The notes beneath the pieces are model-generated. The model saw nothing but the letters and a program-made list of their open reading frames with translations, ran no database searches and was not told the DNA's origin. A stretch of DNA of 64,000 nt from an uncultured Erythrobacter sp. (GTDB taxonomy: Bacteria; Pseudomonadota; Alphaproteobacteria; Sphingomonadales; Sphingomonadaceae): positions 3,109,501 through 3,173,500 of the forward strand of contig CANLAD010000001.1 of NCBI GenBank assembly GCA_947488755.1. The letters run 5' to 3'. Of the stretch, positions 31,809 through 37,108 are shown one piece after another. The position numbers and the translations under genes are program-made. Every line of letters starts with the position of its first letter. Within the stretch, counting starts at the first letter, position 1.

Positions 31809-32345
31809 ATGTCTCGCTGGTACATCATCCACGCCTATTCCGGTTTCGAGAACAAGGTGAAGGAAGCGATCCTGTCCGAAGCCGATCGGCTCGGCCTGTC
31901 CGAAGGCGTGGAAGAGGTCGAGGTGCCGACCGAGACGATCACCGAGATCAAGCGCGGAAAGAAGGTCCAGACCGAGCGCAAGTTCATGCCCGGCTATGTC
32001 CTGGCCAAGCTGCGGATGAACGACGATATCTATCACCTGGTCAAGAACACGCCCAAGGTGACGGGCTTCCTCGGCAACGACAACAAGCCGCAACCGATTT
32101 CCGAGAAAGAGGCTGCGCGCTATTTCGGCGGAGTCGAAGAAGCCAAGTCCGCGCCCAAGCAGCAGGTCAACGTCGATTACGAGATCGGCGATCAGGTCAA
32201 GGTACTCGACGGCCCGTTTGCAAGCTTCAACGGTGTGGTTGAAGAGCTCGATTTCGACAAGGCGAAGGTCAAGGTCAGCGTTTCGATCTTCGGTCGCGCA
32301 ACACCGGTTGAACTGGACTTCGAGCAGGTCGAACTGGTCAAGTAA
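31809..32345 (+). CDS. nusG: Transcription termination/antitermination protein NusG
   Basis: '[20 protein letters not shown]', '[31 protein letters not shown]', KOW '[22 protein letters not shown]'. Confidence 0.98.
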
Positions 32346-32353
32346 GGGCTGGT

Positions 32354-32959
32354 TCAGGCCGCCTTGCGGACCGAACGTTTCGCTGCCCGCCCTCGGGCAT
32401 TCCTCACCAGGCGATAGTCGCGGTAGTCTTCCGCGCCGTCTACCGCATCGCAGCGATAGTCGGCCCGCAGCAGGGCGCTGAACAACCGCTCGAACACAGC
32501 CGCATACCAGACGAACAACGTCTGCGGCGTGCGCGCACCGCCTTCACGATGGATGGAAAAGCTTCGGGAACCACGCGACGCAAACCGCCCCGCGCCTGCG
32601 AAGGTCCAGGCATGGCGACGGATCGCGTGCATCAGCAGCGGTCCCGCGATCGTGGGCGGCAGGATGCGCAGCAGCGTGCGCGCAGGCGCCGGAATGCGAT
32701 GAGCGATGATGTAATCGGCAGTGCCCTGGCCGGCTTCGATCGCGATCCTTTCGGCGAGATGCGGAGCTTTCGCGGCGATCGCCCCGTGCAGGCGCAACAC
32801 TTCGCCTTCCGCGATCATCGTCTCACCGCTCGGTAAGCGCTCCAGCCCTGCATAGGACAGGATCGCGCTCATCTCGCCCACGCCAAGCCGACGCTCCCCG
32901 GCCCACGCAAGTTGCAGCACCGCATTCGGACCGATCAGCGCAGGCGCATCAATCGACAT
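32354..32959 (-). CDS. bchJ: BchJ-like 4VR (V4R) domain protein
   Basis: '[18 protein letters not shown]' and '[57 protein letters not shown]'; start overlaps the bchE stop by 11 nt. Confidence 0.85.
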
Positions 32960-34574
32960 CGATGCGGTCTCTCTTCCTCTCCTGCGCGCGCTCCTGGCCT
33001 CTTTCTTTCATCTGAGCGCGCACCGCTTCACGCCTTTCCTTCGCCTGCGCCGCGCGGTCGGCTGCGGTCTGCCAGTCGGTCGCCGCCTCATGCGCCGCCG
33101 CGCGGCTCTCGTCGAACTGGAAATCGACCTTTTTCTGGGTCTGCGGCCCCCAATAGCCCGCTTTACCCAGATCGTAGAAGGTACGCTTGAACCCCGCGCG
33201 CAGGAACGCGTAGAGGCATCCGAGCAGGTATCGCCGACGAAACCCCGTGCCTCGCCACGGGTAATGGAACAGCGCTTTTTGCATGTAGAACCGGCGGTAA
33301 TTCTTCATCACGCCATTGAGCAGCTCTCCGCGCTCCATTGCCGCCGGTTTCATGATCGGGGTGACGAAATTGTATTTGCTGAAATCGTGGATCTCGACTT
33401 GGTCCTTGATCTCCTCGAACAGCGGGGTGAACGGCCAGGGCGTATACATCGCCCAGTTGGCGAGGTCCGGCTGCCAGTCCCACGCCATCTTGTAGGTCTC
33501 TTCCAGCGTTTCCTCGGTTTCGTTATCGAGTCCGACGATGAACTGCGCTTCCACGAAGATGTCCGCCTCGCGCAACAGGCGGATCGCCTCCTTGTTCTCC
33601 TCGACCTTGGTTTCCTTGTTGAACCGGTCGAGCTTCATCTGCGCTGCCGCTTCGGTACCAAGGCTTACATGGACCAGTCCTGCGCGCCGGTAGAAGGATA
33701 GCAATTCCTTGTCGCGGTAGATATCGGTGACGCGGGTGTTGATCCCCCACTTTATCTTGTCGGGAAGGCCGCGATCGATCAGTTCCTGGCAGAACTCGAT
33801 GAATTTCTTGCGGTTGATGGTCGGTTCCTCATCCGCAAGGATGAAGAAGCCGACGCCGTGATTCACGTGCAGATCCTCGATCTCGTCGACCACATCCTTG
33901 GGGTCGCGAATGCGATAATCGCGCCAGAACTTCCATTGCGAACAGAATGAGCAGGTGAACGGGCACCCGCGCGCCAGATTGGGGATCGCGACACGAGTGT
34001 TCAGCGGCAGATAGGTGTAGAGTTTCCAGTCCAGCACGCCCCAGTCGGGTGTGAGCGTGGACATATCCTTGACCGTGTCGGCGGCGGGCGTCGCAATGAT
34101 CTTGTCGCCATCGCGAAAGGCCAATCCCTTGATTGAAGCGCGATCCGCCTCGTAGCTCCCCTGCGCGATGGCGCCGAACAGCTCGACCGCGATCTCCTCG
34201 CCTTCGCCCCGGACGATGACATCGATATGCGGCGCTTCGCTCAGCACCTGCTTGTACATGAAGGTTGCATGGACACCGCCCAGCACCCGTACCGCGGCCG
34301 GCACATGGAGCGCCGCGATCTCCAGCACGCGTTCGGCGGCGTAGATAGACGGAGTGATCGCGGTGGTGCCGACCACATCCGGCTGCAATGCAAGCATCCG
34401 GTCGCGCAATTCCTCATCCGACAAGCCTTCGGTCATTGCGTCGATGAAGTGAATGTCGCCGTATCCGGCACGCTTGAGTGGCCCGGTCAGGTAAGCGACC
34501 CAGGCAGGCGGCCATGTTCCGGCGATTTCGGCCCCGCCGGAGCGGTAATTGGGGTGAACGAACAGAATACGCAT
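32949..34574 (-). CDS. bchE: BchE-like anaerobic Mg-protoporphyrin IX monomethyl ester oxidative cyclase (B12-binding radical SAM)
   Basis: N-terminus '[49 protein letters not shown]' is strongly BchE-like; radical-SAM '[22 protein letters not shown]'; '[37 protein letters not shown]'. Start at 34574 preceded by a GGAGAGAGG-type SD. Confidence 0.92.
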
Positions 34575-34650
34575 CGACCGTGCCTCTCTCCATGGATGCG
34601 ACTGGCATCCTTTGTGAGCGGGTTGTGCAGGAGAAGAGGGGCGCTGTGCA

Positions 34651-34664
34651 TTGATCGAGGTCAA
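34651..34664 (-). promoter_or_regulatory. FNR/FnrL-type binding site upstream of bchE
   Basis: Plus strand TTGATCGAGGTCAA; minus strand TTGACCTCGATCAA, 9 of 10 defined positions of TTGAT-N4-ATCAA. Centre about 83 nt upstream of the bchE start codon. Confidence 0.6.
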
Positions 34665-34780
34665 TCTCGCCAACCGGCACTACGCGGGTGCGGCACGGTA
34701 ACCCGTTTTTACAGCACGTAAGCCTGCGAAGGCCGGAGACGTCGTGTTCGCTCAAGAAAACGAAATTGGAACGGAAATCG

Positions 34781-35979: not shown

Positions 35980-36411
35980 GTGGCCAAGAAGATCGAAGGC
36001 TATATCAAGCTGCAGGTGCCCGCTGGCACCGCAAATCCCTCACCCCCGATCGGCCCGGCGCTGGGTCAGCGCGGCGTCAACATCATGGAATTTTGCAAGG
36101 CGTTCAACGCCGCGACGCAGGATCTTGAAAAGAGCGCGCCGATCCCGACCACGATCACGGTTTATGCCGACCGCTCGTTCACCTTCACGACCAAGACTCC
36201 GCCCGCATCCTATTACCTCAAAAAGGCTGCTAAGCTGAAGAAGGGTTCAGGCGAGCCGAACAAGAACAAGGTCGGCAAGATCACCCACAGCCAGTTGAAG
36301 GAAATCGCGGAGGCCAAGATGGCCGATCTCAACGCGAACGATATCGACCAGGCAATCAAGATCATCGAAGGCTCCGCGCATTCGATGGGCCTCGAAGTGG
36401 TGGAGGGCTGA
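35980..36411 (+). CDS. rplK: 50S ribosomal protein L11
   Basis: '[40 protein letters not shown]'. Confidence 0.99.
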
Positions 36412-36415
36412 ACCA

Positions 36416-37108
36416 ATGGCAAAGCTGACCAAGAAGCAGAAGAAGACCGCCGAGCTCGATCCTGAAAAGATTTATAGCGTCGATGAAGCGATTGCCACGC
36501 TGCGCGAGCACAAGGCGAAGTTCGACGAGACCGTCGAGGTCGCGATGAACCTCGGCGTCGATCCGCGCCATGCCGACCAGATGGTGCGCGGCATGGTCTC
36601 GCTGCCGTCGGGCACGGGCAAGGATGTGAAGGTTGCCGTGTTCGCGCGCGGCGACAATGCCGAGAAGGCTGAGGCCGCCGGAGCCGACAAGGTCGGCGCG
36701 GAAGATCTCATGGAAGAGATGCAGAACGGCGATCTCGACTATGACCGCGTGATCGCGACGCCTGATATGATGGGCGTGGTGGGTCGGCTGGGCAAGCTGC
36801 TCGGTCCCAAGGGCCTGATGCCCAACCCGAAGCTGGGTACCGTCACGCCGAACGTCGAACAGGCCGTTAAAGACGCCAAGGGCGGCCAGGTCGAATTCCG
36901 CGTCGAGAAGATGGGCATCATTCACTCGGGTATCGGCAAGATGTCGTTCTCGGATGACGACCTGAAGGCGAACTTCAAGGCGATGACCGACGCGATCGTC
37001 AAGGCAAAGCCGTCGGGCGCCAAGGGCAAGTACGTGAAGAAGGTCTCGCTGACCTCGACCATGGGTCCGGGCCTGAAGATCGACACCGCCGATATCGAAG
37101 GCGCGTAG
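36416..37108 (+). CDS. rplA: 50S ribosomal protein L1
   Basis: '[40 protein letters not shown]', '[23 protein letters not shown]'. Confidence 0.99.

Follow-up and report, generated by a model that had tools for sequence, protein, structure and literature searches.

The box upstream of bchE, the gene of the oxygen-independent bacteriochlorophyll cyclase, in an uncultured Erythrobacter sp. can be regarded as a real, conserved FNR/FixK-type site, which likely has a role in this genome. It lies in a window of 64,000 nucleotides, the whole stretch of DNA covered by the first-pass annotation. As read from the sequence, FNR-type activation of the bchEJ operon at low oxygen is well supported. The box would probably be the site of a CRP/FNR-family activator of this operon, and be read by a four-cysteine FNR when oxygen is low.

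The bchEJ locus and its upstream box

The operon and its box occupy the minus strand of the window:

32354-32959, minus strand: bchJ (TIGR02019, 112 bits against a cut-off of 74), overlapping the end of bchE
32949-34574, minus strand: bchE (TIGR02026, 818 bits against a cut-off of 481)
34651-34664, minus strand: FNR/FixK-type box TTGACCTCGATCAA, centred 83 nt before the bchE ATG at 34574

The radical-SAM cysteines C204, C208 and C211 of BchE are invariant. Probably, bchE and bchJ form one operon, and bchJ follows bchE in every sphingomonad locus checked. A pspA-like gene on the same strand ends approximately 206 nt upstream of bchE. The frame of bchE is open as far as a TTG at 34673, which we rejected as a start, since the conserved N-terminus begins at the ATG 34574. 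All BchE relatives start at this N-terminus, with an equivalent ATG or GTG, and therefore the box is non-coding.

Together, bchJ, bchE and the pspA-like gene sit between nusG (31809-32345, plus strand) and rplK (35980-36411, plus strand), in the segment 31809-36411 of the window. Usually, nusG and rplK adjoin. A shared neighbourhood was sought in the relatives across flanks of 1.5-4 kb; no match to nusG, pspA, rplK or rplA was found near bchEJ, only bchJ.

On re-reading, the sequence, coordinates, strand and distance to bchE given for the box by the first-pass annotation were all correct, as was its count of one mismatch to TTGAT-N4-ATCAA. With TTGAY-N4-RTCAA there are no mismatches. Compared with dinucleotide shuffles, three one-mismatch matches to TTGATN4ATCAA were seen where 1.2 are expected per 64 kb (three or more were reached in 11 of 100 shuffles), and one TTGAYN4RTCAA where 0.15 are expected. 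The chance per 220-nt upstream region is approximately 4e-3 for the former and 5e-4 for the latter. Taken alone, the bchE box is only mildly improbable by chance.

Ten distinct TTGAYN4RTCAA sites occur in the whole genome and one of the reversed motif, a control which is too favourable for judging enrichment. Genome-wide enrichment was dropped as evidence, because approximately eight sites would be expected when the window shuffles are extrapolated to the genome. Equal caution applies to the reversed control for TTGATCNNNCGCAA; some of the recurrent TTGATCNNNCGCAA matches are coding, one of them located inside ccoN. Seven of the ten sites lie shortly upstream of gene starts, namely those of bchE, ccoN (two boxes; TIGR00780), nnrS (PF05940), a DUF465 gene, a carotenoid-oxygenase gene (PF03055), and a small gene adjoining fnr. 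The boxes of ccoN and nnrS would fit a FNR/FixK/DNR-type regulon. A perfect palindrome, TTGATAAGTATCAA, is present at L022:5007-5020 (G000:C1:762906). It is apparently intergenic, approximately 250 nt upstream of a small reductase-like gene, and has no obvious FNR target.

Conservation of the box before BchE orthologues

The first-pass annotation had named conservation upstream of bchE orthologues as a check on its reading, and the box was indeed found before nearly every BchE that we read. Among the named BchE loci from GTDB genomes, 79 promoters were readable, and 75 of them carry the box with 0-2 mismatches within 220 nt. Over the same 79 loci, the reversed motif was found in none, and the box inside the gene in two. 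The box is also present in all 50 promoters of the Erythrobacter/Blastomonas clade tree, with a constant left half.

BchE is encoded in 12 of the 301 genomes of the family sample. TTGA-N6-TCAA is found at -60 to -83 in 11 of these 12, and the twelfth has TTGATCTGACGCAA at -63. The sequence flanking the box differs between genera. Outside the sphingomonads, TTGA and TCAA are invariant in 59 box-carrying promoters; this invariance is a little overstated, as the boxes were chosen by similarity, yet the controls indicate that chance does not supply them.

In the window's own genus, where 45 of 114 genomes encode BchE, conservation holds for the left half, TTGAY, and not for the right half, which is GCAA or ACAA in most species. 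Of 25 genus promoters, three have TCAA and 18 GCAA; the remaining four comprise three with ACAA and one with a GCAA missed by the scoring. The 50 clade promoters fall into two spacing classes, one at -77 to -85 with mostly TCAA, and one at -62 to -66 with mostly GCAA or ACAA. The window belongs to the former and has TCAA, and its three nearest BchE relatives belong to the latter. The promoter has therefore turned over locally.

The right half-site matters in the bchE promoter of R. sphaeroides, where a G or C substituted for the T of TCAA at -57 costs approximately 90% of the FnrL response (PMC4263372). The GCAA form is, in turn, taken in by the FixK2 consensus TTG(A/C)-N6-(T/G)CAA, and TTGATCCAGCGCAA itself is listed at a gene whose expression drops in a fixK2 mutant (PMC9104804). 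In the window genome, TTGATCCAGCGCAA is found 42 nt before hemN (G000:C1:3021549-3021562), and TTGATCTCGCGCAA occupies the same place in two relatives (L214 and L215). As a gene, hemN is a classical FNR target. These occurrences suggest that the GCAA right half is a working form in the genus, and they weaken a simple decay of the GCAA boxes.

Candidate regulators and host life style

An fnr-type gene in the genome, another point on which the first-pass annotation had made its reading depend, is present. Six CRP/FNR proteins score above the PF13545 cut-off, and two of them have the FNR-type recognition motif ETVSR:

G000:C1:1340528-1341214: four-cysteine FNR, with CX2CX7C plus a core Cys and an ETVSR helix
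G000:C1:1438273-1438974: second FNR/FixK-like regulator, with ETVSR, the third cysteine absent, directly downstream of narGHJI

The cysteines of the four-cysteine FNR align with those of solved FNR (PDB 5E44/5CVR). Its best model match is FnrL, yet the score of 130 bits is well below the equivalog cut-off of 300 (NF045989), and thus we name it FNR-type and not FnrL. A four-cysteine FNR with ETxSR was found in all 12 BchE-encoding genomes of the family sample. The second regulator, whose best PDB match is FixK2, could read the same box. Within the genus, the other genomes yielded no close orthologue of it, and what matched was their four-cysteine FNR.

The second regulator, with its incomplete cysteine set, belongs to a region with narGHJI and nnrS-type genes (G000:C1:1415001-1438974; L194, L026). 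Genes read from the sequence as narK-like and moa-like lie near narGHJI. Only the window genome had narH above the cut-off among 14 genomes of the genus tested, with none in the other 13. In another Erythrobacter strain, an integrative element was noted to carry a respiratory nitrate reductase system (PMC4919336). Together with the twice-boxed ccoN, narGHJI points to a low-oxygen life, and it is therefore probable that the host is not a strictly aerobic phototroph. Its earlier description as otherwise aerobic is doubtful on the same grounds.

AcsF is encoded in the photosynthesis cluster; assuming a circular contig, approximately 200 kb separate it from bchE. Both cyclases, AcsF and BchE, are encoded in the window genome and in 10 of the 11 other BchE-encoding genomes of the family sample. 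The presence of AcsF makes a switch between cyclases possible.

Promoter geometry

With a class II box, a -10 element is expected 23-28 nt after the box. This geometry gives one further feature:

34616-34629, minus strand: predicted -10 region TGCACAA (34629-34623) and transcription start at approximately 34616, if the box is class II (-41.5)

If the box is indeed class II, the start would be at approximately 34616, as the first-pass annotation had also estimated. At the -10 distance the clade reads CANNNT, with an A in the -11 column of 13 of 15 non-redundant promoters; one exception is the window, and the other is the L052 row, misanchored at -23 although the true box of that locus is at -63. 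Promoters outside the clade almost always have the -11 A as well, but there it overlaps the TGTCA of the PpsR site. The window's own -10 hexamer (TGCACA or GCACAA) is poor and departs from the clade pattern, which possibly reflects a strong activator dependence or a one-base shift.

Absence of a PpsR operator in the BchE clade

The first-pass annotation had found no TGT-N12-ACA (PpsR-type) site close to the box, and this was borne out. The nearest ones in the window are at 33560, inside bchE, and at 36639, inside rplA. Within 250 nt upstream of bchE, TGT-N12-ACA was found neither in the window nor in its BchE clade.

In a tree of 91 BchE proteins, the 24 sequences from Erythrobacter, Porphyrobacter and Blastomonas group into a single clade (SH-aLRT 100), which is nested within those of Rhodobacterales. 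A PpsR operator was found in none of the 24 promoters of this clade. Three other sphingomonad lineages, Parasphingopyxis and the groups g25 and g8, branch elsewhere, each with a PpsR operator. A constraint of all sphingomonad BchE as one group was rejected (AU p 5e-5), with the caveats that this group includes a long-branch member and was defined only after inspection of the tree. The bchEJ operon seems to have been transferred.

Nearly all BchE promoters outside the clade have TGT-N12-ACA, which either overlaps the right half of the FNR box or lies over the predicted -10/start region. Within 120 nt, the closest match to TGTCA-N8-TGACA differs at 0-2 positions in 66 of 67 of these promoters. 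In 23 of the 24 clade members it has 3-5 mismatches, which is comparable to the gene interior.

PpsR itself is encoded in the window genome (TIGR02040). The photosynthesis cluster contains the operator-like TGTCAACTGAATTGGACA before the bchF-side operon, and the operator-like TGTCAGTCTGAATTGACA 47 nt before a bchG-like gene, both gene names being read from the sequence. No TTGAYN4RTCAA box was found in the 40 kb around acsF. In the window genome, it appears that bchEJ is under FNR without PpsR, and the photosynthesis cluster under PpsR without FNR.

The Erythrobacter/Porphyrobacter/Blastomonas lineage of BchE may have dropped the PpsR operator and kept only the FNR/FixK-type box, so that the cluster answers to PpsR, and bchEJ to oxygen via FNR. 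Part of the lineage would have shifted to an asymmetric TTGATC-N4-GCAA, shared with hemN. We put this forward tentatively and give it slightly less than even weight. As far as we searched the literature, the clade-wide missing PpsR operator at bchE and the right-half-site shift within the genus are new.

Proposed mechanism and alternatives

For the window genome we infer a sequence of events that comprises cluster chemistry, FNR binding, activation, the start site and the cyclase switch. When oxygen falls, the four-cysteine FNR would retain its Fe-S cluster and dimerise. The dimer would bind the bchE box at the class II position, approximately -41.5 from the start near 34616, and recruit RNA polymerase. 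BchE could then carry out ring E closure of bacteriochlorophyll under conditions in which AcsF, which needs oxygen, is unable to do so. In the Erythrobacter/Porphyrobacter/Blastomonas clade, FNR would control bchEJ with no direct repression by PpsR, and in the window genome the photosynthesis cluster would keep PpsR control through two PpsR-type sites. The FNR reading of the first-pass annotation stands as far as the FNR gene in the genome and the box before the orthologues are concerned, and less well for the right half-site, imperfect within the genus, and for the aerobic life style.

The box could be read mainly by the nar-linked FNR/FixK-like protein (G000:C1:1438273-1438974), in which case bchE would follow nitrate respiration or NO, instead of or besides oxygen. 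The ETVSR motif of this protein, FixK2 as its best PDB match and its place directly downstream of narGHJI speak for such a role, as does the second regulator of R. sphaeroides, CrpK, which also binds and activates bchE (PMC4263372). The lack of a close orthologue in other genus genomes, whereas the box is far more widespread, makes this unlikely. Chance resemblance is still harder to accept. A one-mismatch match in 220 nt has a probability of about 4e-3, and many regions were inspected in the first pass, but dozens of diverged promoters have the element at the equivalent position, and the reversed control gave no hit. Chance is refuted for the family as a whole, and for the bchE box we regard it as highly improbable.

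The right half-sites bear on another possibility, that the box is a decaying relic of a Rhodobacterales-type promoter. Little control of bchE would then be left in the genus, with the right half lost repeatedly and BchE perhaps a spare gene. That most congeners, and the BchE relatives closest to the window, have GCAA or ACAA as the right half would agree with decay, given the cost of the T to G change in R. sphaeroides (PMC4263372). The box is nevertheless kept, left half constant, in every one of the clade promoters; GCAA boxes are found before hemN as well and conform to the FixK2 consensus (PMC9104804), and the window itself has TCAA. We consider decay quite unlikely, and activation by the four-cysteine FNR remains our preferred reading.

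Relation to known systems

FnrL control of bchE in Rhodobacter, invoked in the first-pass annotation, is confirmed by the literature (PMC2908626, PMC4263372). In R. sphaeroides, FnrL was found by ChIP to be bound at TTGACatgcATCAA upstream of bchEJGP (PMC2908626), and both FnrL and CrpK activate the bchE promoter, with FnrL activating a bchE-lacZ fusion (PMC4263372). In the fnrL mutant, the bchE transcript was higher, not lower, which the authors explain by compensation (PMC4263372). Due to the FnrL binding and activation, the mechanism is established for the orthologous promoter; for the window's promoter we infer it. The bchEJGP promoter of R. sphaeroides (Cereibacter) resembles that of the window in its half-sites TTGAC-N4-ATCAA, the orthologous bchE with bchJ next to it, and a four-cysteine FNR-type regulator. 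Each genome also has a second FNR-like regulator, CrpK in R. sphaeroides and the nar-linked protein in the window genome. In contrast to R. sphaeroides, the window genome has bchEJ apart from the photosynthesis cluster, with the box at -83 instead of about -60 and with no PpsR operator, and its regulation is a predicted one.

Other Rhodobacterales combine CrtJ/PpsR and FNR at bchE, and CrtJ acts at bchEJGP of R. capsulatus (PMC6199135). These promoters (59 non-sphingomonad ones with a box) share with the window's clade the FNR-type box and the A at the expected -11, a clade pattern to which the window is an exception. They differ by a TGT-N12-ACA overlapping the box or the -10 region, which the clade lacks. 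The FixK2 box of Bradyrhizobium, TTG(A/C)-N6-(T/G)CAA (PMC9104804), covers both the TCAA of the window and the GCAA of most congeners. The regulator conserved across these genomes differs from FixK2, a protein devoid of an Fe-S cluster, in having the four cysteines of FNR.

According to a 2025 review, bchEJ is absent from the cluster, or entirely, in most aerobic anoxygenic phototrophs, and its loss is ascribed to its little use in air (PMC12654162). The presence of bchE in 45 of 114 genus genomes, with a low-oxygen-type box in every promoter read, suggests that BchE is kept for low-oxygen use. If the lineage reading is true, a route to bacteriochlorophyll dedicated to low oxygen exists in many sphingomonad phototrophs described as “aerobic”. 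If the clade did lose the PpsR operator that its relatives on the tree retain, this would be a natural experiment in operon rewiring.

Two further observations concern the BchE proteins. The divergent BchE of L042 (G287), 71% identical and on a long branch, comes from a genome in which no AcsF was found; with a completeness of 96%, AcsF may have escaped the assembly. The C-terminus of BchE reads ACGGG.EQM or similar in some sphingomonads (L039-L042), and that of the window's clade is different, the window itself (32949-32990) ending in KRDRIDVD.
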